A stretch of 52,926 nt of DNA from Bacteroidales bacterium. Lineage in GTDB: Bacteria > Bacteroidota > Bacteroidia > Bacteroidales > UBA932. Positions within the stretch are counted from its first letter, which is position 1, and the number at the start of each line of letters is the position of its first letter. The notes beneath the pieces are model-generated. The model had not been told where the DNA came from. It saw only the letters and a program-made list of their open reading frames with translations, and ran no database searches. Below, piece after piece: positions 948 through 13,657 of this stretch. The stretch is taken from contig JAGAHD010000136.1 of the NCBI GenBank assembly GCA_017627255.1, forward strand, positions 1-52,926. The letters are read 5' to 3'. The position numbers and the translations under genes are program-made.

Positions 948-983
948 ATCTTTTTATCGCATGTTTTCTCATGTGCGTGACAA

Positions 984-997
984 GCACGCTCCGTGCC
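984..997 (-). promoter_or_regulatory. sigma-54 (-24/-12) promoter of the HlyD gene
   Basis: Read on the minus strand the sequence is TTGGCACGGAGCGTGCTTG. The GG (-24) is at 996-997 and the GC (-12) at 984-985, with exactly 10 bases between, so it matches the TGGCACG-N4-TTGCW consensus closely. The expected start of transcription is near 972, about 25 bases before the ATG at 947. An NtrC-type regulator encoded at 6436-7800 in the same cluster is the natural activator. Confidence 0.75.
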
Positions 998-1039
998 AAA
1001 TGATTATATGATTGATTTACAGGATGATACAAAAAGAAA

Positions 1040-1091
1040 GGAGTGTAAAATGCTGTAAAACACTTTACACTCCTTTACAGAATCTTTACAG
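1040..1091. promoter_or_regulatory. phased half-site array, probable activator (UAS) site before HlyD
   Basis: Five 7-bp units of GTGTAAA/CTGTAAA or the reverse complement TTTACAC/TTTACAG start at 1043, 1053, 1064, 1074 and 1085. They are 10-11 bp apart, that is one DNA turn. The units at 1040-1049 and 1064-1073 form a perfect 10-bp inverted repeat (GGAGTGTAAA / TTTACACTCC). The array lies 46-94 bp upstream of the -24 GG of the HlyD promoter, a normal position for NtrC-family enhancer sites. Related clusters precede the TolC and regulator genes. Binding by the local regulator is inferred. Confidence 0.6.
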
Positions 1092-1093
1092 TC

Positions 1094-3979
1094 TTACCAC
1101 GCCGTGTTCCAGGCAGCCTGCTGGGCGCGCTGGCTGTGGATAGCATTCATTTTACCGAAATTCCATTTGATTCCGAAAAGAACATACCGTCCCATGATGA
1201 GCCTGTAGGAATCTTCTTCGTAATTGGCGGTCACCGTGTGGGTCAGGTTCCGCGTCTGGTCCAGGATGTCATGGACTTTGACGCTCAGGTTGAAAGCGCC
1301 GATGTTCCTGGAGATTTCAGCATTCCACTGCCATTCCGGCTGTCCATACCCTTGTGCATAGCCGTGGTACTGAACATAACTGATATCCGAATTGAGGTCA
1401 AACTCATGCCTGGTGGTATAGGAGCCCCGGGCCGAGAGCCGGGTATCCAGCGTATTCAGGTCAGCCCTGGGGTCCAGGGAATAGCGGGCGATGCGTCCCT
1501 GGGCGCTGGCTCCGGCACTGAAGGAACAGCGGTCTTCATTGTACCTGACCGAAAAACTGGCTTGGGGGCTGACAGACCGCGTACGGCTCTCCCCGAATCC
1601 GCTGGCGCCGCCGTAGAAGCGGTCCCCCTGTGCCTCTCCCCAGAAATCGCTCATGAACTCCGAGTAATCAAAGGCGTCCTTGTCCAGGGCAGGTCGTGTC
1701 GTCCTGGCTTGGTAACTGACCGTAGAAGAATAGGACGCGGAACCGCTGAGGCTCAGGGACCAGATCTTCCGGGAGTCAAGCGGGGTGGTATAATTCGCTG
1801 AAAGCGAGGAGGAAAGCCCGGGCTTTCTGGCATTGACGGGAAGGGAGTACCGGATGCCGTCCGAATCGTACCACTGGGCGGAAATGATGGGGGAATATGT
1901 CATCTGCCCGAAAAGGTACACCATCAGGGTAGAAAACTTTTCCCGGTTGTTCCGTGTCCAGTCAGCATTGAAATAGGTGTATGAATAGGGCTTCAGATAC
2001 ACGTTTCCAAGGCTCAGCCGGGCTGGATCAGTGATGTTCAGTACCGGTTGCATGCGGGAAGGGGAAGGATTCTGGGTGTAACCGGAAACAGACAGGGAGA
2101 AGCGGTCCTTGTCCTTTCCGTGCTGAAGGCGGACGGTCGGGGAGACAAACCAGTTCCATTCATCCTTGCCCGTGACTTCCTCGATCCCGAAACTTTTGGA
2201 GTACGTCTCGATGAGACGGCCGGACAGGCTGCTTCCGACCGTGATCCAGCTGCTCTGCCCGAATTTGTACTGGGCTGTCAGGCTGTATTCCTGGGAAAGG
2301 GAAGGGGAGCGGCTTATGGAAGAATAGTAATCGTTCCGTCCGGCGTGGTCGTAAGCGTCACGGACGCTTTCACGGCGCGCCCATGACAGGTTCGCCGCCG
2401 TGGAAAGGGACCATTTCTCTCCTAACGGTTCCGTATACCGGAGCCCTCCTTCCAGCCCGTAACGATGGCCTTCCGAGACGTATTTCATGGATCGGATGTC
2501 CTTGCCCGCCGTTGCGGTCAGGACGGAGGATTCTGTGCTCTCTCCGGTGTTGCTGCTGTAACTGGAGGAGATATCCAACTGGATCGTCCTGTTCTTCTTG
2601 CCCCCTAGTTCGCGGAGCGTCATGTCGGCGTAAAAGGACGCAGACTTGTCCCATGTCAGGCTGTGTGACGAGTTGTCTGCGCTGTTCAGGAAGGTTCCTT
2701 GCCGGAACACTTCCGATGAACTGTTGCTGAAGGCATCGTTCTGGTTGTATCGGAAGGAAGGGCGGACATGGAACCAGACGCGGCCTTTCTCTTTTTCGAA
2801 TTCCAGGTTGGTGCTCATGGAGTTGGAATAGGATTTCCCCCAATTCTCCGTTGCGGAGGACAAGTTCCCGTCTTCCTGGAAAGTGGTCCGGCTGGCACGG
2901 GTGCCGGAGTCCGTGTCCGAGTATTTGTAATTGACGCTGACGGTGGTCTCCACGTCCCTGATACGGGACGTGTTGGCGTTCAGGCCCAGCTGTGCGGCGG
3001 AAGAAATGCCCTGGTTCAGGTTGGTGCTTTCACCGCTGTCGTCGATCATGATGACAATGGCATTGGAATCGTTGACGTTCTGGGCATTGCCGACGACGGT
3101 TACCTGGTCTTTTTCGGTATAGGCCGACACCAGCGTATTGCCGCTCCACAGCAGGCCCCGGCTGTCCCGGAGCATATCGTCTCCGTCTTTCCGGCCCAGC
3201 GTAGACCCGCCCTTGAGCCCCACGTTACCGAACCAGCCCTGCTCATACTCTTTCTTGAGGGATACGTCCAGCACTTTTTCGCGGGATCCGTCCTGTACTC
3301 CGGAAGCGCGTGTGGATTCACTTTCGCGGTCGATGACGCGGATTTTATCCACGATGGAGGCCGGCAGGTTGTTCAGTGCCGTGCTCTGGTCGTTGAAGAA
3401 GAAGGTTCGGCCCCCGACCGTGAGTTTGTCAATTTCCTCTCCATTGAATTTCACTTTGCCGTTTTCGGTGATTTCCATACCGGGCATCCGCTGCAGGAGA
3501 TCCTTCAGCATGGCATTGGTTCCGCCCCGGAAGGAAGAAGCATTGAACTCAACCGTATCTTTCTTGACGACGATGGGATTGCCGACGTCGGAAACGACAG
3601 CCGCCTGCAGGAACTGCTCGTCCACCTGGAGCCGGATCGTTCCCATGTCCACCTGTCTTTCCCTGAAATACTTTTCTTTGACATAGGGCTTGTATCCCAT
3701 CATTTCCACGTGGAAGATATAGCTGCCGAACGGCACCTCCTCCAGTTTTGCTTCGCCTTTGGCATCCGTCAGGGTGAAATTGGTGATGACGGTATCCTTG
3801 GAGGGGATGACGTACACGGAAGCGAAGCCGACCGGTTCGTTGGTCAGGGAGTCTACGACGGTGGTTTTGATTTCACCGAGCCGGCTGTTCATCATGTTGT
3901 CATTGATGATGACGACCTGCGCCCGTGCAGGTACACTCAGGCAAAGGCACAGCAGGAAGGCGATCAGAATTCTTTTCAT
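1094..3979 (-). CDS. outer-membrane beta-barrel protein with N-terminal carboxypeptidase-regulatory-like domain (TonB-receptor-like)
   Basis: This is a 961-residue protein. The start is taken at the ATG at 3979 because it opens a clean signal peptide (MKRILIAFLLCLCLSVPARA, cleavage before QVVI); the next in-frame ATG upstream would add 14 unlikely residues. A CarboxypepD_reg-like domain follows (about 35-115; DAKGEAKLEEVPFGSYIFHV), then a plug-like segment (LLQRMPGMEITENGKVKFNG, KIRVIDRES), then a long run of alternating beta-strands ending in the C-terminal barrel (FGIKWNFGKMNA). The layout fits the OMP_b-brl_3 / TonB-dependent-receptor-like family common in Bacteroidota. It lies about 100 bases downstream of TolC on the same strand and is probably cotranscribed with it. 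Presence in a sigma-54 efflux cluster suggests an envelope role rather than simple nutrient uptake, but its ligand is unknown. Confidence 0.8.
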   Translation of the reverse strand: MKRILIAFLLCLCLSVPARAQVVIINDNMMNSRLGEIKTTVVDSLTNEPVGFASVYVIPSKDTVITNFTLTDAKGEAKLEEVPFGSYIFHVEMMGYKPYVKEKYFRERQVDMGTIRLQVDEQFLQAAVVSDVGNPIVVKKDTVEFNASSFRGGTNAMLKDLLQRMPGMEITENGKVKFNGEEIDKLTVGGRTFFFNDQSTALNNLPASIVDKIRVIDRESESTRASGVQDGSREKVLDVSLKKEYEQGWFGNVGLKGGSTLGRKDGDDMLRDSRGLLWSGNTLVSAYTEKDQVTVVGNAQNVNDSNAIVIMIDDSGESTNLNQGISSAAQLGLNANTSRIRDVETTVSVNYKYSDTDSGTRASRTTFQEDGNLSSATENWGKSYSNSMSTNLEFEKEKGRVWFHVRPSFRYNQNDAFSNSSSEVFRQGTFLNSADNSSHSLTWDKSASFYADMTLRELGGKKNRTIQLDISSSYSSNTGESTESSVLTATAGKDIRSMKYVSEGHRYGLEGGLRYTEPLGEKWSLSTAANLSWARRESVRDAYDHAGRNDYYSSISRSPSLSQEYSLTAQYKFGQSSWITVGSSLSGRLIETYSKSFGIEEVTGKDEWNWFVSPTVRLQHGKDKDRFSLSVSGYTQNPSPSRMQPVLNITDPARLSLGNVYLKPYSYTYFNADWTRNNREKFSTLMVYLFGQMTYSPIISAQWYDSDGIRYSLPVNARKPGLSSSLSANYTTPLDSRKIWSLSLSGSASYSSTVSYQARTTRPALDKDAFDYSEFMSDFWGEAQGDRFYGGASGFGESRTRSVSPQASFSVRYNEDRCSFSAGASAQGRIARYSLDPRADLNTLDTRLSARGSYTTRHEFDLNSDISYVQYHGYAQGYGQPEWQWNAEISRNIGAFNLSVKVHDILDQTRNLTHTVTANYEEDSYRLIMGRYVLFGIKWNFGKMNAIHSQRAQQAAWNTAW

Positions 3980-4079
3980 TCCATGACGGTATAAGGTGGG
4001 AAAAGTCCCATCAAATATCATGCTGCGGGGAGGGTTTCAGGACAATCACTATGACAGATTCTGCATCTGTGAGAGCCTG

Positions 4080-5411
4080 TTACTGATTGACATACTCCTG
4101 CCCGTTATAATATTTGACGACAGCCTGTTTGATCAGGTATTTGAACAGACTGTTCATTTCGTCTGTCTGCGCCTTCAGGTAATTGCTGCTGGCGGTCTGG
4201 AATTCAAGCGGCGAGATGAGTCCTTGCTCCAGTTTCTTGAGATGCAGCGAGTAGGCTTCCGACTGGACTTCCGCCTTCGTGCGGGCCTGCTGCCAGGCGG
4301 CGGCACTCCCGTCGCGGTCCCGGATGGCCCTGCGGACTTCACTTTCGATGTCACGGCGCTTCTGGTCCAGTTCGGCGGTCGCTTTTTCGTAGGCGTGGCG
4401 TTTCCGGGAAATGCGGGAGGCCTTTCCCAACCGGTCCCAGATCGGAATGGAGAGCGAAAGTTCCACGTATTCACCGCCGTTGTTGCGGAACTGCTCGCGG
4501 AACGGAGCGGTCGACGAGCCTTGGTAGGTATAGTAGCTGGTGCTCCATCCGGCATACAGGCCGATGGATGGCAGGACCTGCCAGCGGGCGGTCTGGAGTT
4601 CCCGCCTGGCGTTGAGCTGCTTCCAGGACGCGATCCTCACGGCGGGATTGTGGTCGAGGGCGAATTCCACGACGGCGTTTTCCGCAACCGGCTCCAGTTC
4701 CGCTTCGGGCAGGGAGGTGTCGATCACCAACTCCTCGTCCACCGGCCAGAACATCAGGTCGGCTAATGTCATTTTCTGGCTCTCATACGTGTTGAAGGCA
4801 TTGATGACGTCATATTGGCGGTCAGCCAGGTCCGCCTCCATCTGGACGACGTCGGCATGTCCTTTCTGGCCCAGCTGTTCCTGGCGCTTCGCTTTCTTCA
4901 AGGAAGCCTCGGCGGTTGCCAGCTGTTCTTCACAGACATCCGCCAGGCGCTTGTAATACACGACATTGTAATAGGCCTCCATCACGGCCAGGCAGATGTC
5001 CGCTTCCACCTGCTTTTCCTGGGAATCGACAATCAGGAGGCCGGTGCGGGAAATCTTGTAATTGTTCACTGCCTGGAAACCGTCGAAGAGGTCATAACCT
5101 GCCGAAACGCCATAATTGTTGTGGAAGGACGTTGTATTGAAATACGTATTCGTCTGCGGGTCGATGCTTCGCCCGAAATTGTAGTAGGCATACGTCTGGG
5201 CATCGATCCGCGGGGTGAACAGGGCGAGGGCGGCATCCCGGCGGTCAAGCCGTGCATCGCCGGTCTCGGCCTGCTGGATCCGTACTTTTGTGGAATTGGA
5301 TACCGCATACCGCATGCAGTCCCGGAGGGTCATGGTAGTCTGGGCGCCGGCACACACTGTCACAGCGGATGCCAGCACCATAACTACACATTCTTTGAAA
5401 AGGTTTTTCAT
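4080..5411 (-). CDS. TolC-family outer-membrane efflux protein
   Basis: A 443-residue protein starting at ATG 5411, which begins the signal peptide MKNLFKECVVMVLASAVTVCAGAQ. The body has the two-fold OEP pattern: LRDCMRYAVSNSTKVRIQQAE near the N-terminus, FGRSIDPQTNTYFN and SAGYDLFDGFQAVNNYK typical of Bacteroidota TolC proteins, and a second repeat (ALDHNPAVRIASWK; LSLSIPIWDRLGK). It would form the trimeric channel paired with the HlyD adaptor at 1-947. It is preceded by a sigma-54-like element (5445-5458) and an upstream half-site cluster. The histidine kinase ends about 146 bases upstream on the same strand. Confidence 0.9.
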   Translation of the reverse strand: MKNLFKECVVMVLASAVTVCAGAQTTMTLRDCMRYAVSNSTKVRIQQAETGDARLDRRDAALALFTPRIDAQTYAYYNFGRSIDPQTNTYFNTTSFHNNYGVSAGYDLFDGFQAVNNYKISRTGLLIVDSQEKQVEADICLAVMEAYYNVVYYKRLADVCEEQLATAEASLKKAKRQEQLGQKGHADVVQMEADLADRQYDVINAFNTYESQKMTLADLMFWPVDEELVIDTSLPEAELEPVAENAVVEFALDHNPAVRIASWKQLNARRELQTARWQVLPSIGLYAGWSTSYYTYQGSSTAPFREQFRNNGGEYVELSLSIPIWDRLGKASRISRKRHAYEKATAELDQKRRDIESEVRRAIRDRDGSAAAWQQARTKAEVQSEAYSLHLKKLEQGLISPLEFQTASSNYLKAQTDEMNSLFKYLIKQAVVKYYNGQEYVNQ

Positions 5412-5444
5412 ATCAATATTTTGTTTAACCGCCTGAAAAAGGAA

Positions 5445-5458
5445 ACACCCATCGTGCC
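5445..5458 (-). promoter_or_regulatory. sigma-54-like promoter of TolC
   Basis: On the minus strand the site reads TTGGCACGATGGGTGTTT. The -24 block TTGGCACG is perfect (GG at 5457-5458). The -12 dinucleotide, 10 bases on at 5445-5446, is GT rather than the usual GC. Transcription would start near 5433, about 20 bases before the ATG. The matching distance to the upstream half-site array supports the call despite the weaker -12. Confidence 0.5.
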
Positions 5459-5515
5459 AAAATAGATAACATATTGACATGCAGGTGTTTATAGAATTTA
5501 TTCCTAGAGAAAAAA

Positions 5516-5556
5516 GTGTAAAGTTTACATTCCGCTTTACACTTTCGGGTTTACAC
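5516..5556. promoter_or_regulatory. half-site cluster (UAS) before TolC
   Basis: Units are GTGTAAA 5516-5522, TTTACAT 5524-5530, TTTACAC 5536-5542 and TTTACAC 5550-5556. The first two form a tight palindrome (GTGTAAAGTTTACAT). The cluster lies 58-98 bp upstream of the -24 GG at 5457-5458 and ends one base before the histidine-kinase stop codon. The motif is the same as in the arrays at 1040-1091 and 7902-7950. Confidence 0.55.
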
Positions 5557-5557
5557 T

Positions 5558-6439
5558 TTAGCGGAACCTGAGCTCGAAGACCGTCTCGCTGAGGTCGCTT
5601 TTGATGAGGTCGATGCTGCCGTTGTGCTGCCGCATGACTTGGCGGGCCAGGGAGAGCCCGATACCGGAGCCTTCTTTCTTGGTGGTAAAGAAGGGAACGA
5701 AGATCTCTCCTTGGCTGGCGATGGGAATCGGCTCGCCGTCATTGGCGACCCGGATGACGGTTTCGTCGTCCTTGTCGAGGGATGCTGTGATGGAAATGTG
5801 CTTTGCACCTGCCTGCAGGGCGTTCTTGATCAGATTAATCAGGATCTGGGAAATCTGCCCTTCGTCCGCATAGAGCATCAGGTCCGATTCCTGCGGGCAG
5901 TAGGTGCAGGTCGCACCCTTCGCCGCCAGTGCCTCGCTGTTGAGGCCGATGGTCATATCCATCAGTTCCTGCAGTTCGACGGCTTTCTTGACCGGTTTGG
6001 CAACGCCGCTGAGTTCCCGGTACGTCTCCACGAACTTGATGAGGTTCCTGGAGGAATCGGAGATGGTCTCCAGGCCCGCTTTCACGTCCAGTTCGCTGTG
6101 GCCTTCCCCGTCCATGGAACGGGCGAGGGCGTCGCTCAGCGATGAGATCGGTGCAACGGTGTTCATGATTTCGTGGGTGAGCACGCGGATCAGTTTGGTC
6201 CAGGAATCCTGTTCGTGCGCCTGGCGCTGTTTTTCGAAAATAGTACGGATACGGTTCAGGGTCCGGTTGAACTTGTTTTTGTCCTGGAAGCGGAAATTCA
6301 GTTCCCCGTCCTCCAGCGCATCCATCATGTAGGCCACTTTCTGGATATCTTTCCGGCGGGTCCGGAGCGATGCGACCACCGCCACGACAATCGCGACGAT
6401 GACGGACACCCCGATGATATGCCAGAGGGAAAAGGTCAC
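5558..6439 (-). CDS. short membrane-anchored sensor histidine kinase
   Basis: A 293-residue kinase. A single membrane segment at residues 6-25 (WHIIGVSVIVAIVVAVVASL) is followed directly by a linker (ALEDGELNFRFQDKNKFN) and the dimerisation/phosphoacceptor box LIRVLTHEIMNTVAPI, with His89. The catalytic domain shows the N box (LINLIKNALQAGA), G1 (RVANDGEPIP) and G2 (GSGIGLSLARQVM). There is no periplasmic sensing domain, so the signal may come from the membrane or a partner. The gene overlaps the response regulator by four bases (ATGA at 6436-6439), which implies translational coupling. It is the cognate partner of the sigma-54 activator upstream. Confidence 0.9.
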   Translation of the reverse strand: MTFSLWHIIGVSVIVAIVVAVVASLRTRRKDIQKVAYMMDALEDGELNFRFQDKNKFNRTLNRIRTIFEKQRQAHEQDSWTKLIRVLTHEIMNTVAPISSLSDALARSMDGEGHSELDVKAGLETISDSSRNLIKFVETYRELSGVAKPVKKAVELQELMDMTIGLNSEALAAKGATCTYCPQESDLMLYADEGQISQILINLIKNALQAGAKHISITASLDKDDETVIRVANDGEPIPIASQGEIFVPFFTTKKEGSGIGLSLARQVMRQHNGSIDLIKSDLSETVFELRFR

Positions 6440-7800
6440 AGGCCGTATTTCTTCAGTTTCGCGTACAGGGTAGGCCGGCTTACGCCCAGCATTTTGGCGG
6501 CCGCTGAAATATTGCCTCCGTGGCGCTGCAGGGCATCCCTGACCAGTCGCTCTTCCTCAGCCTCGCTGATCGCCTTCAGCGATCCGGCGCTGCCCCTGGA
6601 GGACTCCAGCTGGATATCCTTCCCCGTCAGGATACTGCCTTCCGAAAGGATGACCGCCTTTTCCATTACATTCTGAAGCTCCCGGATATTGCCGCTCCAG
6701 CGGTGCGCTTCCAGGGCTTCCCGGGCCGTTGCGTCCATCCCTTCCAGGGCCCGGTGGTATTTCCGGGCAAACTGCGAGAGGAAGCGTTCCGCCAGCGGTA
6801 CGATGTCCTCCCGGCGTTCCCGGAGTGCGGGAAGGGTAATGTGGAGTGTGTTGATGCGGTAGTACAGATCCTCCCGGAACCGGCCTTCCCGGACCAGTGC
6901 CTCCAGGTCCATGTTGGTGGCGCAGATGAGGCGGATATTGACCGGGATGGCCTGTGTTCCGCCGACACGGACGATACTGCGGCTCTGGATGGCACGCAGC
7001 AGCTTGGCCTGCAAGTGCAGCGGAATATTGCCGATTTCGTCGAGGAACAGCGTCCCTCCGTCCGCCTGCTCGAATTTGCCGGCATGGTCGGTGTGCGCAT
7101 CGGTAAAGGCGCCTTTCACATGGCCGAAAAGTTCACTTTCAAACAGGGTCTCCGTAATGGCACCGGCGTCGACGGCGACCATCGGTTTCCCGCTGCGGAG
7201 GCTTGCGGCGTGGATTTCCCTTGCCAGCACGTCCTTGCCGGTGCCGTTCTCTCCGGTGATGAGGACCGTGGCGTCGGTCGGAGCGATTTTGGCGATGGTT
7301 TTCCGGATGGCATTCATGGCATGTCCGGTTCCCCAGTACATGGTGCTTTGACCCTGGCCGGCATCGTTGTCCGCAGGAGCCTTGGAGGAGGATCCTTTGC
7401 CCAGCGTTTTCCGGGCCTTGTCCCTGGCGGCAGACAGGGTGGCGACCAGTTTTTCATTGTCCCAGGGCTTTACGATGAAGTCGAAGGCTCCGCGCTTCAT
7501 CCCTTCCACGGCCAGCTGGATGTCTGCGTAGGCGGTGAAAAGCACAACTTCCACATCCGGCGCCATCTTCTTGAGTTCCGTGGTCCAGTACAGGCCCTCG
7601 TTTCCGGTATTGATTTCCGTGTGGAAATTCATGTCCAGCAGCACGACGTCCGGCCGGAAGCGCTCCAGCGCCGCTACCAGCGTGGAAGGAGAGGGAAGGG
7701 TCTCCACCGCTTCGAAATACAGGGGCAGGAGGATTTTCAGCGCCTGGCGGATGCCGGCGTTGTCATCAACAACGAGAATCTTTCCTTTTTTCGGTGCCAT
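6436..7800 (-). CDS. NtrC-family sigma-54-dependent response regulator
   Basis: A 454-residue, three-domain activator. The receiver domain (residues about 6-125) has the acidic pair D12-D13, phosphoacceptor D56 (DVVLLDMNF) and the conserved lysine in FIVKPWDNEKL. The AAA+ domain (about 150-385) has Walker A GENGTGKD, the sigma-54 contact loop as GAFTDA, and Walker B GGTLFLDEIGN. The C-terminal Fis-type helix-turn-helix reads GGNISAAAKMLGVSRPTLYA. The start at 7800 gives MAPKKGKILVVDDN, the normal beginning of a receiver domain. The gene heads the minus-strand cluster of kinase, TolC, beta-barrel protein and HlyD. It probably binds the repeated GTGTAAA-type sites at 1040-1091, 5516-5556 and 7902-7950, including its own upstream region. 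Confidence 0.93.
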   Translation of the reverse strand: MAPKKGKILVVDDNAGIRQALKILLPLYFEAVETLPSPSTLVAALERFRPDVVLLDMNFHTEINTGNEGLYWTTELKKMAPDVEVVLFTAYADIQLAVEGMKRGAFDFIVKPWDNEKLVATLSAARDKARKTLGKGSSSKAPADNDAGQGQSTMYWGTGHAMNAIRKTIAKIAPTDATVLITGENGTGKDVLAREIHAASLRSGKPMVAVDAGAITETLFESELFGHVKGAFTDAHTDHAGKFEQADGGTLFLDEIGNIPLHLQAKLLRAIQSRSIVRVGGTQAIPVNIRLICATNMDLEALVREGRFREDLYYRINTLHITLPALRERREDIVPLAERFLSQFARKYHRALEGMDATAREALEAHRWSGNIRELQNVMEKAVILSEGSILTGKDIQLESSRGSAGSLKAISEAEEERLVRDALQRHGGNISAAAKMLGVSRPTLYAKLKKYGL

Positions 7801-7842
7801 AAGAACAAGCGAATTTACGTTATTTTTGTTTCCTGACCAAAT

Positions 7843-7856
7843 ACAATCCTTATGCC
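7843..7856 (-). promoter_or_regulatory. weak sigma-54-like element before the response regulator
   Basis: The minus strand reads TCGGCATAAGGATTGTATT: GG at 7855-7856 and GT at 7843-7844 with 10 bases between, the same GG-N10-GT geometry as the TolC promoter. Match to consensus is poor by sequence. The half-site array starts 46 bp upstream, exactly as at the HlyD promoter. A primary-sigma -7-like TGTATTTG overlaps the same place, so basal transcription by either route is possible. Confidence 0.35.
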
Positions 7857-7901
7857 GACTCGGTATATTGTTATCTATCAGTTGTTTACTGTTTTTCTGC
7901 C

Positions 7902-7950
7902 GTGTAAAGAGTGTAAAGGTGTTTCGTGAAAGTGTAAGGATTCTTTACAG
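7902..7950. promoter_or_regulatory. half-site array (UAS) in the regulator/exonuclease divergent region
   Basis: Units are GTGTAAA 7902-7908, GTGTAAA 7911-7917, GTGTAAG 7932-7938 and TTTACAG 7944-7950. They share the sequence and the distance (46-94 bp from the -24-like GG) of the array before HlyD. The position fits autoregulation of the two-component genes. The divergent exonuclease promoter lies about 50 bp further along. Confidence 0.55.
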
Positions 7951-8043: not shown

Positions 8044-8541
8044 ATGTTGACTGATTTTGCAGCGATTGATTTTGAAACGGCGAATGAGTGCCTCTCCAGC
8101 GTATGCAGCGTGGGGGTGGTGGTCGTGCGCGGCGGAGAGGTCGTGGATTCCTATTACAGCCTCATCCATCCGGAGCCGGAGTATTACCAATGGTTCTGCC
8201 GCCGGGTGCACGGGCTTTCTGAAAAGGATACGGAAGATGCCCCTTCCTTCCCTTCCGTCTGGGAGAAAATCGCCCCGAAGATTGAGGGGCTCCCGCTGGT
8301 GGCACACAATGCCCGGTTCGACGAAGGGTGCCTGAAAGCGGTCTTCAAGGTCTATCAGATGGATTATCCGGACTATGTGTTCCATGATACACTGAAGGCG
8401 TCGCGCCGTTTTTTCGGGCAACGCCTTCCGAATCATCAACTGCAGACCGTGGCCGCAGCCTGCGGATATGAATTGACGCGGCATCATCACGCCCTGGCCG
8501 ATGCCGAAGCGTGTGCGCAGATTGCGCTCCGGTTACTGTAA
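8044..8541 (+). CDS. DnaQ-like 3'-5' exonuclease (Pol III epsilon-type)
   Basis: A 165-residue DEDDh exonuclease. The ATG at 8044 is chosen because the protein then opens with MLTDFAAIDFETAN, the ExoI motif right at the N-terminus; the -7 element at 8000-8007 also fits only this start. ExoII-like residues are in PLVAHNARFDEGCL and ExoIII in HHHALADAEACAQIAL (His and Asp). The single domain is similar in size to stand-alone epsilon-like proteins found beside DNA repair or polymerase genes, and there is no helicase or BRCT extension. The likely role is trimming or proofreading of DNA 3' ends in the cytoplasm. Its 3' end overlaps the convergent permease gene by nine bases. Confidence 0.88.
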   Translation: MLTDFAAIDFETANECLSSVCSVGVVVVRGGEVVDSYYSLIHPEPEYYQWFCRRVHGLSEKDTEDAPSFPSVWEKIAPKIEGLPLVAHNARFDEGCLKAVFKVYQMDYPDYVFHDTLKASRRFFGQRLPNHQLQTVAAACGYELTRHHHALADAEACAQIALRLL

Positions 8542-9750
8542 CTGCAGCGCTCCTTTCCGTTTGAGCACGTAGTTTTCGACATACACCGACACGCAGGCCA
8601 GAAAATAGTAGACGACTCCCTGGATACAGAGGGCGCGCAGCAGCGGCGCGACGATCTCGAGATCGGCGCCGGCCGTATTCAGGTTGATGAAGGCCTGGCA
8701 GCCGAAAGTGGAGGGGAAGAGCCAGGAAAACCATTTCCACACGGTCGGGAATGCACTGGTAGGCCAGCTGAATCCGGTCAGGAACACACAGATCGGGCTC
8801 ATGAACAGGAATAGCAGGAAAGCGGATTCCCGGCGGGTCACCAGGGTGCTCCAGCTCATGCAGAAGAACACGCAGACCGTTACGAAAATGGAGAGCAGGA
8901 CCAGGATGTCTCCATAACTGCCGCGCTGCGGGAAATGGAACATGGCCGGTACGATGCACGTTACGTAAATGCCGATAATCATGAATATCAGCCAATAAAC
9001 AGCACCGCGGCCCAGGACGACCCTGCCGACGCCATGTCCTTCGAGCGTGTCCGGCAATGAGGCGAAACTGCGGTTCTCTTCCCGCATGGTTCCCACCGAC
9101 ATGCTCATTCCGTAAAACATCACCTGCTGGACGATCAGCATCAGGATGGCGGAAATCAGGAAAATACTGTAAGAAAAAGCCCGGTTATAGGGGTTGATGT
9201 CCTCATAGGCGACGGTATTCACGGCCTGGTCGGCCTGGGCGTCCGTCAGCCCATCGAACGTGTAGCGGTCAATCTTGATCTGGTTCACTTCGTGCAGCAT
9301 CACGAATTCGGATCCCATGAGCAGGTTCTTGTAATACAGGAAGCTGCTCATGTCTGCATAGATGCTGAATGTAGCTGTCTCCCGGTGGGCGAGCCGGTCC
9401 CCGAAATCTGCGGGGAAATAAATGATTCCGTTGACTTTCCGCTGCTGGAAGAGGGTACGGGCTTCTTCCATCGAGTTGCAGTGGGCGGCGATGCCGATCT
9501 CCCGGGTCGCGTCCATTTCGCGGATCATCCGGCGGGAGTCACTGCAGTCGGCATGGTCCACCACCGCAATGGGGGTATCCTCCAGGATTCCGTTCTTGTA
9601 CACGAAATTGTAGAGAATCGGATACAGGAAGCCGGCCACGATGAAAATAATCATGACGCCTCCGTCGTGCAGGATGTTCCGGAGTTCCAGGTTGAAGATG
9701 CCCAGGGCGTCCCGGAACCACCTTCCCAGATATGTGTCAGTTCCTTTCAT
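8533..9750 (-). CDS. ABC-2-type permease of an efflux system (second permease)
   Basis: A 405-residue membrane protein. The start at ATG 9750 (MKGTDTYLGRWFRD) gives a 14-base overlap with the upstream permease. One N-terminal membrane helix (VMIIFIVAGFLYPILYN) is followed by a large extracytoplasmic domain (about 45-175) and five to six C-terminal helices, including FSYSIFLISAILMLIVQQVMFY and the SPICVFLTGFSWP region. This is the DrrB/YhgE/YbhR-like ABC2_membrane_3 layout. It pairs with the paralogous permease at 9737-10906, with HlyD (10908-11891) and TolC (11903-13492). No ATPase gene is present in the operon, so an ATPase encoded elsewhere would be needed. The exported substrate is unknown. 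Confidence 0.85.
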   Translation of the reverse strand: MKGTDTYLGRWFRDALGIFNLELRNILHDGGVMIIFIVAGFLYPILYNFVYKNGILEDTPIAVVDHADCSDSRRMIREMDATREIGIAAHCNSMEEARTLFQQRKVNGIIYFPADFGDRLAHRETATFSIYADMSSFLYYKNLLMGSEFVMLHEVNQIKIDRYTFDGLTDAQADQAVNTVAYEDINPYNRAFSYSIFLISAILMLIVQQVMFYGMSMSVGTMREENRSFASLPDTLEGHGVGRVVLGRGAVYWLIFMIIGIYVTCIVPAMFHFPQRGSYGDILVLLSIFVTVCVFFCMSWSTLVTRRESAFLLFLFMSPICVFLTGFSWPTSAFPTVWKWFSWLFPSTFGCQAFINLNTAGADLEIVAPLLRALCIQGVVYYFLACVSVYVENYVLKRKGALQLQ

Positions 9751-10906
9751 AATCCAAATATTCGTAAGCATGGGCAAGGCGCTTCATGACCGTGAACGGG
9801 AGGAAACAGAAGGCCAGCAGGGAGATGACGTACGGGTACCAGGCTCCGAAACCGCTTCCGAAGATGCCTGCCTGTACATAAAACTGGTAGTAGAAACGCA
9901 GGGGGTAGATCCATGTCAGCGAACGGAGGGCGCCCGGCATCGCCTCCACCGGAAGGGTGAATCCCGTCAGGGAAAGGCCCAGAACGCTGTATAGGGCACC
10001 GATGCTGAGGGCAAAGCGACACACAGGCACGCAGCCGATGATCAGGACCGCCACGCTTTCGGATGCGATCACCAAGAGGAACATGGCCAGCAGCATCTGT
10101 CCGATACTCCCTGCCAGCGGAAAGTGCATCCATTTGTACAGGATGAACACGAGTGTCCAGCCGATCATTGTGAAGAGGGCGGTATACAGGGCCAGTTTCC
10201 CGCTGAGGGCGGCATAGATGTCGCCGTCTACCGAGCGGAGCAGATGGCGTCCGGTTCCGTATTTCAATTCGATGCCGAGGGAATAGATCATCACGATGAC
10301 AATGACCATCTGCAGCATGCCCGGCAGCATCATGTTCGCCAGATAGGCCCCGTAATTCATGGTGGCATTGCCGATCTGGTGCACGTCGACGTCCACGGGG
10401 CGCAGCAGGCCTCCCATCTGGCTTTCGGGGACGCCTTTCATCCGCAGCACTTCCCGCTGGACGGCTCCGGATGTCAGGTTGACCATGGTCAGGATATCCT
10501 TCCATGCAAGGGAACCTCCCAAAAAATACAATCCATTGATATAGAAGCTCATCTGTGGCTGACGCTGCCCCTGGATGTCGCGGTTGAAGCCCTTCGGGAT
10601 CACGCAGACGGATGTGACGCGTCCACCTTGCAGGTCCATCCGTGCCCGGCTGAAATCCTCGTAGGGAATGACGCGGCCCAACTGAGTGGCGTCCAGCTGC
10701 CGGCAGAAATTGCGGGAGGTGGCGCTCTGGTCCAGGTCCACGACGGCGATCGGAACGTCCGACGGTACGCCGTCCTGCAGGAAGCTCAGGTAGAAGACGG
10801 TACAGAAGGCCATCACGAATACCGTTCCCAGCAGGAAGATCGGCCGGTGCTCCCAAATCCGCACCTCGCGCCGGATTACCTTGCGTATTTTATCAACAAA
10901 GCGCAT
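9737..10906 (-). CDS. ABC-2-type permease of an efflux system (first permease)
   Basis: A 389-residue protein beginning MRFVDKIRKVIRREVRIW at ATG 10906, one base after the HlyD stop; a TTG 15 bases upstream is less likely. The architecture matches its neighbour: helix 1 (PIFLLGTVFVMAFCTVFYL), a large external domain with VPIAVVDLDQSATSRNF near its start, then a cluster of C-terminal helices (MLPGMLQMVIVIVMIYSLG; LLAMFLLVIASESVAVLIIG; LSLTGFTLPVEAMPG). In YbhS/YbhR-type systems two such permeases form the inner-membrane heterodimer. Tight spacing with HlyD and the next permease indicates one operon. Confidence 0.87.
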   Translation of the reverse strand: MRFVDKIRKVIRREVRIWEHRPIFLLGTVFVMAFCTVFYLSFLQDGVPSDVPIAVVDLDQSATSRNFCRQLDATQLGRVIPYEDFSRARMDLQGGRVTSVCVIPKGFNRDIQGQRQPQMSFYINGLYFLGGSLAWKDILTMVNLTSGAVQREVLRMKGVPESQMGGLLRPVDVDVHQIGNATMNYGAYLANMMLPGMLQMVIVIVMIYSLGIELKYGTGRHLLRSVDGDIYAALSGKLALYTALFTMIGWTLVFILYKWMHFPLAGSIGQMLLAMFLLVIASESVAVLIIGCVPVCRFALSIGALYSVLGLSLTGFTLPVEAMPGALRSLTWIYPLRFYYQFYVQAGIFGSGFGAWYPYVISLLAFCFLPFTVMKRLAHAYEYLDYERN

Positions 10907-10907
10907 T

Positions 10908-11891
10908 TTATTCAACAACAAGAACGGTCATTCCCGGACGGAGGCCTTCTACCGGGCTGTCCGGGACGGCCCGCACCTCGAAGGTTTTGGCATCATAGCG
11001 ATCGGTCTCCTTGGTCGCTTTCCAAGTGGCGTAGGATTCCCGGACGGCCATGTGGTTGACAGTCGCCTGGAGGCGTGCGCCGTCCAGGGCGGGGATGCTG
11101 ACATTCAGCTTGTCGCCGACTTTCATCGCGTGCAGCTGGTCTTCCCGGATGTTGAAGGTGAACCAGATGTCCGACAGGTCTGTCACGGTCATGACCGGGC
11201 TTCCTTCACCGACGAGTTCTCCCTGACGGGGATAGACATCGGAAATGATGCCGCCGGAGGGTGCGGTCAAGTAAAGTTCCTGCAGGTAGGAGTTCACTTC
11301 CTGGATCGCTCCATCTGCCTGATGGACCAGCGCTTCCGCTGCGGCCTTGTCCTCGCTGCGGGCTCCTTTCAGGGCACGGTCATACTGGCTCTTGGCTGCC
11401 CGCGCCTGGGCGACGGCGGCGTCATACTGCGCCTTGGTTTCGTCATATTTCTGGGCGGCGACAACATGCTGGTCATACAGTTGCTGCACGCGGTCCAAGG
11501 ACTTTTTGAGGATTTCTTCCTGCACGAGGGCCTGCTGCCATAATTCATAGGCTCCGGCAATCTGTTCCTGCTCGGCGCCGTTGCGGGCTTTCAGGCTTTG
11601 CGCCCGTGCTGCGGAGCGGGCGGCCTGGGCCTGCGCCAGTTTGGCCTTCACCTGGGGTGAGTCGATAAAAGCGACAGTGTCGCCGCGCTGTACGGTCTGG
11701 CCTTCACGGACATAGAGTTCGGTCACATGGCCGGGCACCATGCAGGAGATCCTGTATTCCGTGGCCTCGGTTTCCCCCTGGATAACTTGGGGCCGGGGCC
11801 TGCTGACGAGATATCCGACGAATGAAATGATCAGCACGATGGTCACCAGGGCACTGATGCCGATGACGAGGTTGTAGTTTTTCTTTGCCAT
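10908..11891 (-). CDS. HlyD/EmrA-type membrane fusion protein
   Basis: A 327-residue adaptor. An N-terminal membrane anchor (about 8-29, VIGISALVTIVLIISFVGYL) is followed by the first lipoyl half (VPGHVTELYVREGQTVQRGDT), a coiled-coil hairpin rich in Ala/Gln/Glu (about 75-190), the second lipoyl half (APSGGIISDVYPRQGELV) and the beta-barrel segment (DIWFTFNIREDQLHAMKVGD). It lies 11 bases after TolC and one base before the permease, so it is in the same operon. It should link the ABC-2 permeases to TolC across the periplasm, as YbhG does. Confidence 0.92.
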   Translation of the reverse strand: MAKKNYNLVIGISALVTIVLIISFVGYLVSRPRPQVIQGETEATEYRISCMVPGHVTELYVREGQTVQRGDTVAFIDSPQVKAKLAQAQAARSAARAQSLKARNGAEQEQIAGAYELWQQALVQEEILKKSLDRVQQLYDQHVVAAQKYDETKAQYDAAVAQARAAKSQYDRALKGARSEDKAAAEALVHQADGAIQEVNSYLQELYLTAPSGGIISDVYPRQGELVGEGSPVMTVTDLSDIWFTFNIREDQLHAMKVGDKLNVSIPALDGARLQATVNHMAVRESYATWKATKETDRYDAKTFEVRAVPDSPVEGLRPGMTVLVVE

Positions 11892-11902
11892 ATTTCGTTT
11901 TT

Positions 11903-13492
11903 TTATTGTTCTCTGTAATTGCCTTCTGCTTTCTGCAACGCGTCACAGGCCATCTGCAGTCCGATTCCGGCGTCGATGTAGTCGCTGTGGGCGCTGAGCC
12001 ATGCGGTATGCGCGGCGAGCACGACATCCGTCGGGGTGACGCCCGCCTCGAAACCGACCGTGGCCTGCCGCAGGTTCTCTTCGGCGCTGGCGAGGTTGGA
12101 TTCCGTCATGGCGAGTTTCTCGTGCGCCTCCTTCAGCTGTTTCCGCTCTCTGGCCACCTGCAGTTCGACGAGTTCGCGGGCGTCTTGGTACTGGTCCTGG
12201 TACAGGCGTGCTTCAGCCTTGGCCTTGCGGAACTGGTTCAGGGTTCCTCCTCCGTGGAAAAGCGGTACGCTGACCATGACTCCCACCGTGAACATCCCAC
12301 CGTTCCAGGTGTTCTGGATGCCGTTGAAGGCATTGGGATTGGAAAGGAGATAGTTGGCTGTCAGGGCAAGTGTCGGCATCAAGTCGGCGCGGGCGACCTT
12401 CGCCTTGCGGTCGTAGATTTCACCGGCCAGTTGGAGGCTGCGTGTCTCCGGGCGGTCGGAATAGATCTGCTCGAGTTCTTTCACGGACGGTTCCACCGGC
12501 TGCGGAATGATGTCCAGGGCTTCGTCGACGAGCCGGATGTCACTTTCAAGCGGCAGGCCGATCCGTTTGCAGAGGAGCATTTTGGCCAGTTCGAGGCCGT
12601 TGCCGGCCTTGGTCAGGAGCATGTCCGCTTCATTGGCCTTGACCTTGATCTGAAGGATGTCGGACTCCGTTGCCAAGCCGGCTTCTGCCGTCCGTTCCAT
12701 GTCCTTTTCCATATGGTGAAGGAGTTCGGCATAGGCTTCCGCCAGTTTCTTCTTGTTCGCAATGGAGACGATCTGCCAGTATGCCTGGTCTACGTCGACG
12801 ATCACATCGGCGTACTGCATGTCATACTTGGATTGTGCCAGTTCCTCGGAAAGTGCAGCCATCTGGTTGGAATAGAGGATCTTGCCTCCGGCGAAAACCG
12901 GCTGCTGGAGCGTTATCGCCCCCAGCCAGAGGTTGTGCATGTCCGGATGGAGGGCGTCATTCAGGTCTGCTCCGATGGCATTGACCGGCGTTGCAATGTC
13001 GGGAAGCTGTCCGGCCAGGGTGCCGGGATCCGTTCCCTGCAGCATGCCGATGACCGTTTGCCACATCGGGCTTCCCATATACTCTGCGGCCAGCGCAGGA
13101 TTGGTCTGGATCGCCGTCATCAACTGGGTCATCTTGTCTGTCATGGCCGCCTGGAACTGTCCGGCAGCCCCGGCGAGGGCACTTTCCATCTGTCCCTGGA
13201 GCAGGGTGCCTGCCATGGGGAGAAGGTCCGATTTCTCATCACTGATGAGGGCGATGTCCCTGTTATTGTACAGGTAGGCGCCCGTGGCGTTGATGCTCGG
13301 CAGATAGTGGGCGCGGGCAATCTTCCGGTCGTACCCCGCCATTTCCATCCGAATGCGGGCCTGGTCCAGTTCCCGGGACGTACGGACGGCCCGGTCGCGG
13401 CACTCATCCAGACTCAGGGTGATTTGTGCGGAAGCGGCGGTCACGTTCAGTATTCCCAGCATGCCGGCGATTAAGATTGTTTTTCTCATCAT
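11903..13492 (-). CDS. TolC-family outer-membrane channel heading the ABC efflux operon
   Basis: A 529-residue protein starting at the tandem ATGs 13492/13489 (MMRKTILIAGMLGILNVTAASAQ, signal peptide; cleavage after ASA). It shows the OEP repeats (LSLDECRDRAVRTSRELDQAR; LWLGAITLQQPVFAGGKILY; GMFTVGVMVSVPLFHGGG) and long coiled-coil helices. It carries an insert at about residues 75-150 (QMESALAGAAGQFQAAMTDK) that is rich in Ala, Gln and Met, making it longer than the 443-residue TolC at 4080-5411. It is the first gene of the operon and is followed after 11 bases by HlyD. Confidence 0.9.
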   Translation of the reverse strand: MMRKTILIAGMLGILNVTAASAQITLSLDECRDRAVRTSRELDQARIRMEMAGYDRKIARAHYLPSINATGAYLYNNRDIALISDEKSDLLPMAGTLLQGQMESALAGAAGQFQAAMTDKMTQLMTAIQTNPALAAEYMGSPMWQTVIGMLQGTDPGTLAGQLPDIATPVNAIGADLNDALHPDMHNLWLGAITLQQPVFAGGKILYSNQMAALSEELAQSKYDMQYADVIVDVDQAYWQIVSIANKKKLAEAYAELLHHMEKDMERTAEAGLATESDILQIKVKANEADMLLTKAGNGLELAKMLLCKRIGLPLESDIRLVDEALDIIPQPVEPSVKELEQIYSDRPETRSLQLAGEIYDRKAKVARADLMPTLALTANYLLSNPNAFNGIQNTWNGGMFTVGVMVSVPLFHGGGTLNQFRKAKAEARLYQDQYQDARELVELQVARERKQLKEAHEKLAMTESNLASAEENLRQATVGFEAGVTPTDVVLAAHTAWLSAHSDYIDAGIGLQMACDALQKAEGNYREQ

Positions 13493-13601
13493 ACTTCGTT
13501 TCTGTTTTTTCAGCGGGAGAGATAACAAAATACTTGCCTTATTTTCCTCCAAAAGAGATAAAATTAGCCTTAAAAATGTCGAAAAGGTTGTTTTTTTAAT
13601 C

Positions 13602-13609
13602 CAAATATG
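13602..13609 (-). promoter_or_regulatory. possible -7 element for the TolC-HlyD-permease operon
   Basis: The minus strand reads CATATTTG, seven of eight matches to TAnnTTTG, about 110 bases before the ATG at 13492. No -33 TTTG is visible. A second weak candidate (TAATTTTA, 13559-13566) is closer. Both are in an AT-rich leader, so the exact start is uncertain. Confidence 0.25.
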
Positions 13610-13621
13610 TCTGTGTGACGT

Positions 13622-13657
13622 AAAAAAGAGGACGGACACAGTTTCGTGTCCGCCCTC
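13622..13657 (-). terminator. intrinsic terminator of the long GalNAc-locus operon
   Basis: Two 12-base arms (13628-13639 and 13646-13657; GAGGACGGACAC on the plus strand) pair with one mismatch around a six-base loop. On the minus strand the hairpin is followed by six U residues (13622-13627). It lies 38 bases after the kinase stop codon and is the only clear terminator seen on the minus strand between 34230 and this point. Confidence 0.85.

Follow-up and report, generated by a model that had tools for sequence, protein, structure and literature searches.

The 52,926-bp window analysed here (contig JAGAHD010000136.1, or G000:C118 in our numbering) comes from a Bacteroidales assembly of 2.16 Mb in 185 contigs (74 % complete) and encodes on its minus strand, in this order, an NtrC-type response regulator, a histidine kinase, a TolC-type channel, an outer membrane protein and an HlyD-type adaptor. 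Ladders of short half-sites lie upstream of the regulator, tolC and adaptor genes, each ahead of a putative sigma-54 -24/-12 element. The same ladder design recurs in related genomes together with the regulator gene; therefore, the ladders are very probably the binding site of the neighbouring NtrC-type regulator and mark out a candidate regulon. The sequence-only reading had already named this regulator as owner of the sites, a proposal now supported by its domains, by a sigma-54 gene in the home genome (PF04552 at G000:C126, E 2.9e-52), by conserved, phase-locked sites and by co-occurrence across genomes of the genus (61) and of the order (295).

The explanation that we consider highly likely as a whole runs as follows. 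Phosphorylated regulator dimers would bind 17-bp dyads (TGTAAA-N5-TTTACA), or quasi-dyads of adjacent half-sites, in ladders acting as upstream activating sequences, with about one half-site per helical turn at about -50 to -100 from the -24 element. A protein of the integration host factor (IHF)/HU type would bend the spacer at WATCAANNNNTTR, allowing the AAA+ hexamer to contact sigma-54 RNA polymerase. Transcription would thereby be opened at the genes of a MacAB-TolC-type efflux system (tolC, the adaptor and, in relatives, permeases and an ATPase), a small-protein gene at another locus would be switched on likewise, and the regulator and kinase genes of the window would be activated too (positive autoregulation). 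The sequences of the sites, their register, their conservation, their co-occurrence with the regulator and the identities of the genes are directly supported; it is co-occurrence with the regulator, and this only, that points to the activator as the protein that would bind the ladders. Judged from these data, the arrangement is a classical sigma-54 enhancer architecture with efflux and envelope targets, and with putative autoregulation in some genomes.

Half-site ladders and promoter geometry

Three clusters of GTGTAAA/TTTACAC 7-mers had been described in the sequence-only reading, and they are real: all seven exact copies of GTGTAAA in the window (both strands) fall inside them, so that the 7-mer is not equally common elsewhere. 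The count alone is modest (7 observed vs 2.41 expected, standard deviation 1.67; 3/100 shuffles reach 7), and therefore the clustering, not the number, carries weight. The unit is better read as TGTAAA/TTTACA, the half-site of the 17-bp dyad. Units of this form start at 1044, 1054, 1064, 1074 and 1085 (plus 1016) in cluster 1, at 5517, 5524, 5536 and 5550 in cluster 2 and at 7903, 7912 and 7944 in cluster 3. Among 1,887 overlapping 112-bp segments of the window, three or more units occur solely over these clusters, and none of 5000 dinucleotide shuffles per region reaches the number of units seen there (6, 4 and 3, vs shuffle means of 0.21, 0.25 and 0.16). Across the home assembly, GTGTAAA-N5..25-TTTACAC is found at clusters 1 and 2 only. 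The spacings of 10, 11, 10 and 11 bp reported for the first cluster hold for the centres of the 7-mers, the hexamer starts giving 10, 10, 10 and 11, while the cluster-to-promoter distances, put at 46–58 bp, were correct, the leading G of the GG lying 46, 58 and 46 bp away.

Matches to the sigma-54 consensus at up to two mismatches are no more numerous in the window than chance predicts (20 vs 21.7 expected). The consensus alone was therefore dropped as uninformative there, and the credibility of the -24/-12 elements rests on conservation. We assembled 23 promoters in which a TGGCA element is clear: those of tolC and the adaptor gene in the window and 21 from relatives, including that of L020, which precedes the small-protein gene. 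In this set, units lie near -92, -82, -72, -62 and -52 from the first base of the -24 element, and the 105 units are phase-locked to it (resultant 0.67, period 10.25–10.5 bp). A further 27 units in nine regulator promoters (the window and eight relatives), which lay outside the set of 23 and were selected for showing units, gave a resultant of 0.81 at 10.25, and 64 units in 19/29 order-level loci gave 0.80 at 10.75; a locus was counted if it had at least two units and its -24 element was clear, a rule that the other 10 failed. The sites and their register thus recur in relatives, as dyads upstream of -24/-12 at constant helical register, which is the arrangement expected of sigma-54 enhancers. 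The cleanest unit form in relatives is TGTAAAG-N3-CTTTACA, perfect in L042, L045, L049 and L064, and perfect twice over in L065. Five order-level loci (L227, L228 and L230–L232) carry two plain dyads ~21 bp apart, whereas near relatives of the window have a fuller, less regular ladder. A search of distant loci for any 6-bp inverted repeats close to matches of the sigma-54 consensus returned nothing consistent.

Between the ladder and the -24 element, WATCAANNNNTTR, the Escherichia coli consensus for IHF given in PMC5963220, is matched on either strand with one mismatch at most in 21/23 spacers (mean 2.5, maximum 9 in 500 rounds of mononucleotide shuffling). The best match sits at -19/-20 in 19/23 promoters, in one of these with two mismatches, and the home genome holds one HU/IHF-family gene above cut-off. 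This putative IHF-like site refines the earlier reading, which did not mention it.

Co-occurrence with the regulator and predicted targets

A strict 17-mer scan (up to two mismatches) of 61 genus genomes was noisy, with matches in 49/61 and a reversed-pattern control that was often non-zero; it was therefore replaced by a sequence-only profile of the 23 promoters, which we ran on the 61 genus genomes and on 295 genomes of the order Bacteroidales. The home genome returned eight matches at E up to 1, four of them below 1e-4: the two training sites (9.5e-20 and 7.8e-17), one unlinked gene (2.6e-6) and the regulator promoter (4.3e-5).

In the genus sample (cut-offs of E <1e-140 for the regulator and <1e-6 for the model), a model match was present in 23/32 genomes with the regulator vs 3/29 without it (nominal p 1.4e-6), and in 14/23 vs 3/29 once the nine genomes that contributed training sequences were removed (p 2e-4). 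The three exceptions are G021, where a contig ends in a fragment of the regulator, G059, with a 59-residue fragment, and G037, in which no window-type regulator was found at E 1e-15, the stretch retrieved holding only kinase and tolC pieces. The G037 locus (C14, L182) has a ladder and a sigma-54 element before a truncated tolC, with a kinase piece only, and looks like a decaying copy.

At the order level, a match at E ≤2e-9 is present in all 11 genomes whose regulator is 61 % identical or more, vs 1/284 others (p 4e-19), the sole exception, G071, holding a 55 % regulator homologue. At a model E of ≤1e-5, 32 genomes match and all have a regulator homologue at E ≤1e-115 (32/152 with the homologue vs 0/143 without, p 1e-10). 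Several of the weaker matches directly adjoin the homologue gene, facing away from it (e.g. G318:C10, G148:C55, G178:C67, G133:C36 and G232:C11). At a sampling step of 5 bases, no 30-mer is common to the training set and any of the 29 order-level loci.

In 21 of those 29 loci, the first downstream gene encodes a TolC, adaptor, permease or ATPase (E 1e-3); among the other eight, assigned by eye, are proteins that look secreted or are unassigned, as well as two noise-like cases. The single unlinked target in the home genome encodes a protein of 118 residues whose start looks signal-like by eye and which matches CarboxypepD_reg below the Pfam cut-off. Its homologues in the 61 genus genomes (E ≤1e-8) are preceded by a model match in 5/5 cases, at distances of 51 to 140 bp; four of the promoters lay outside the training set and one inside it. 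In the genome of L061, eleven model matches are dispersed over contigs. The regulon that had been envisaged as local is thus supported as a regulon, but is not purely local, given the unlinked small-protein gene and the promoters on other contigs. Beside this, the 118-residue gene of the home genome is followed by tRNA-like genes (by eye).

The Fis-type DNA-binding domain attributed to the regulator was confirmed, with PF00072, PF00158 and PF02954 all above cut-off, and the protein is a full-length match to NtrC-family 4l4u. The window kinase has one N-terminal hydrophobic segment (by eye) and no Pfam match to a PAS domain, while the kinase of L064 has a match just under the Pfam cut-off. A bolder version of the model, which we regard as fairly unlikely, would have a Bacteroidales-wide sigma-54 efflux and envelope regulon in which an activator oligomer nucleates along a continuous ladder with one half-site per helical turn, any adjacent pair of half-sites serving as a dimer site, and in which the partner kinase, PAS-less in the window, is controlled by pump activity.

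In Flavobacterium and Myroides, a different dyad, TGTYC-N6-GRACA, occurs within 300 bp upstream of the regulator in 8/8 loci, and all 10 copies in the 154,704 bases of these loci lie upstream of the regulator. Their recognition helix reads SRxxLYRR vs SRPT(L/F)YxK in nearer homologues, and the dyad is probably the flavobacterial counterpart of the site.

Weighing the proposed regulon

Several observations weigh against the regulon as proposed. In the window, the units of the TolC promoter are spaced 14, 12 and 7, not at regular helical turns, and the regulator's own promoter has GT rather than GC at -12, lacks the first T of -24 and shows no IHF-like match at the usual position. The test of the IHF-like site was based on the mononucleotide shuffles given above. 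The regulator loop is GAFTDA instead of GAFTGA; GAFTDA or GSFTDA is found in 54/60 homologues examined, which suggests a common variant rather than decay. Binding, bending, activation and autoregulation are steps that we infer.

The co-occurrence figures also call for caution. Cut-offs were set after the lists had been seen, and the p values are too favourable because related sequences are not independent. No model match below E 1e-6 was found in 9/32 genus genomes with the regulator, five of which are at most 80 % complete and two more than 90 %; the nine include G013 (96 % complete, regulator 53 % identical) and G019 (91 % complete). At the order level, 120/152 genomes with a homologue lack a match at 1e-5, mostly with distant homologues. 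Many regulator loci of 54–71 % identity have no array in the flanks examined, which was at first counted against the regulon; yet of 19 genomes with the regulator but no array at the tolC of the examined locus, 14 have model matches elsewhere. The search of these 19 returned 15 loci, 11 of them readable, and 8/11 precede an efflux-set gene (BLAST), in one case 641 bp downstream. The remaining 5/19 have no model match at E 1e-3; among them are the genomes of L046 and L075, which, judged by contig, seem to correspond to G002 and G019 in the genus set.

Of all parts of the proposal, autoregulation is the least well supported. Units in register are present in the window and in the eight relatives picked for units, but two or more units within 230 bp upstream of the regulator occur in only 5/18 loci whose regulator reaches 70 % identity and in 6/60 of all loci; autoregulation is therefore not general. 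The flavobacterial dyad, for its part, was read from the sequences before being counted, and it is missing from at least six loci outside Flavobacteriia whose helix resembles SRxxLYRR (L077, L091, L096, L097, L099 and L100). The link between helix and site is loose for that reason, and co-variation of the two is weaker than we first thought.

If a different transcription factor sharing these promoters bound the ladders, with the NtrC-type regulator binding something else, the irregular TolC-promoter units of the window and the loose helix–site link among distant homologues would both be accommodated; we nevertheless judge this improbable, as the register is locked to the -24/-12 elements and the ladders co-occur with the window-type regulator. 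It is still less probable that another sigma-54 activator of the home genome, encoded on C178 or C60, uses the ladders. Both proteins have sigma-54 activator domains, each needing enhancers somewhere, but homologues that align similarly to the C178 protein (assigned by alignment span only) occur in 58/61 genus genomes, with or without arrays, whereas arrays track the window-type regulator; the test is weaker for C60 because its homologues fell below the E threshold of the regulator search. Chance AT-rich repeats in intergenic DNA, for which the lack of excess sigma-54 matches and the 3/100 window shuffles reaching seven GTGTAAA might be cited, were rejected as vanishingly unlikely on the regional shuffles (0/5000 each), the unit density, the home-genome scan and the recurrence of sites and register in relatives.

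Gene content of the locus and comparison with known systems

The features of the locus are collected in Table 1. The nearest named relatives of the window are uncultured Bacteroidales, many of rumen origin. The order regulator–kinase–tolC–adaptor is kept in 10/18 mapped relatives (L044, L045, L048–L053, L073 and L090), the remaining eight being short, divergently arranged or without a labelled tolC or adaptor in that order. We preferred the tolC start at 5411 to that at 5480, because the latter lies upstream of the sigma-54 element. The outer membrane protein between tolC and the adaptor gene, whose start at 3979 is our choice inside the open reading frame 1094–4021, found no match at E 1e-20 across the 60 loci L041–L100; a 61 % relative lies near the regulator of the genus genome G003 (L210). 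The adaptor gene has its own ladder and sigma-54 element.

Table 1. Features of the regulator–efflux locus and of related loci
Feature	Position	Strand	Basis or remark
NtrC-type response regulator, 454 aa: receiver, sigma-54 AAA+ with GAFTDA loop, Fis-type helix-turn-helix	6439..7800	-	Pfam; PDB relatives NtrC-family 4l4u, ZraR 1ojl
Partner histidine kinase, 293 aa	5561..6439	-	Start overlaps regulator gene end by 4 bases
TolC-type outer membrane efflux protein (OEP)	4083..5411	-	Pfam; preferred start 5411
Outer membrane protein (type by eye), N-terminal CarboxypepD_reg domain	1097..3979	-	Pfam
HlyD/MacA-type adaptor, truncated by contig end	1..947	-	Pfam; followed by genes for permease and ABC ATPase in relatives, e.g. 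L045
Half-site ladder, adaptor (HlyD) promoter: -92, -81, -71, -61, -51 from -24 element	1044..1090	-	Unit positions
Half-site ladder, TolC promoter: -96, -82, -70, -63	5517..5555	-	Unit positions
Half-site ladder, regulator's own promoter: exact units -92, -60, -51, plus imperfect partner completing TGTAAAGAATCCTTACA	7903..7949	-	Unit positions
Putative sigma-54 -24/-12 element TGGCACGGAGCGTGCT of adaptor gene	983..998	-	Consensus match, conservation
Putative sigma-54 -24/-12 element TGGCACGATGGGTGTT of tolC	5444..5459	-	Consensus match, conservation
Candidate sigma-54 -24/-12 element CGGCATAAGGATTGTA of regulator gene, weak	7842..7857	-	Counterparts: L041 CGGCATAAGGCTTGCA, L048 CGGCGCAAGGCTTGCA
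IHF-like site TGTCAATATGTTA, 1 mismatch to WATCAANNNNTTR (tolC promoter)	5467..5479	-	Consensus match
IHF-like site AATCAATCATATA, 1 mismatch (adaptor promoter)	1005..1017	-	Consensus match
118-residue CarboxypepD_reg-like small-protein gene	G000:C72, L181:342-695	-	Downstream of same promoter type
Flavobacterium/Myroides dyad loci	L079, L080, L081, L083, L084, L086, L088, L089		

The NtrC dyad at sigma-54 enhancers is TGCACC-N5-GGTGCA, and IHF-assisted sigma-54 promoters are known. The promoters described here are reminiscent of both, with 17-bp inverted half-sites around an N5 spacer ~100 bp upstream, a constant register and an IHF-type consensus before -24. They differ from NtrC enhancers in the window-type sequence TGTAAA/TTTACA and in the ladder of several half-sites, at steps of about one turn, in the window and near relatives, and from known IHF-assisted promoters in the closeness of the IHF-like site to the -24 element.

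MacAB-TolC tripartite efflux comprises a TolC-type channel, an HlyD/MacA-type adaptor, a MacB_PCD/FtsX permease and an ABC ATPase. The same four component types are found here, the OEP and HlyD proteins in the window and the permease and ATPase in relatives only (e.g. L045), because the window contig stops within the adaptor gene. Unlike MacAB-TolC, the ATPase and permeases of L045 are separate proteins, and control is predicted to be by sigma-54.

A link between sigma-54 and FtsX-type permeases has been proposed from promoter statistics: COG0577 permeases are enriched for predicted sigma-54 promoters in Bacteroidia, which was called first evidence (PLoS One 2025, PMC12316311). The available part of that paper assigns no activator or enhancer site; here, a regulator, motif, geometry and unlinked target are proposed. 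In Flavobacterium psychrophilum, sigma-54 promoters were tied to envelope stress and exported proteins, with three PF00158 proteins (PMC9723704); the available text assigns no activator site, and the flavobacterial homologues examined here have a different dyad. Among the matches listed in the open-access literature, we found no DNA site assigned to a Bacteroidota sigma-54 activator, which is weak evidence of absence, and no open-access work joining sigma-54, Bacteroidetes, enhancer binding and efflux. New here is that a candidate activator, its motif, the geometry of the promoters, a probable site of bending and a list of targets are put forward jointly. Together they amount to a prediction of how Bacteroidales of the gut and rumen may turn on a TolC-linked ABC efflux system, and the promoter model offers a search tool for the regulon in cultured relatives.

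Finally, a second efflux-type cluster lies on the same strand of the window (8533–13639) and carries no ladders; it comprises two ABC-2 permeases and an HlyD-type protein (Pfam) and an outer-membrane-factor-like open reading frame identified by eye.

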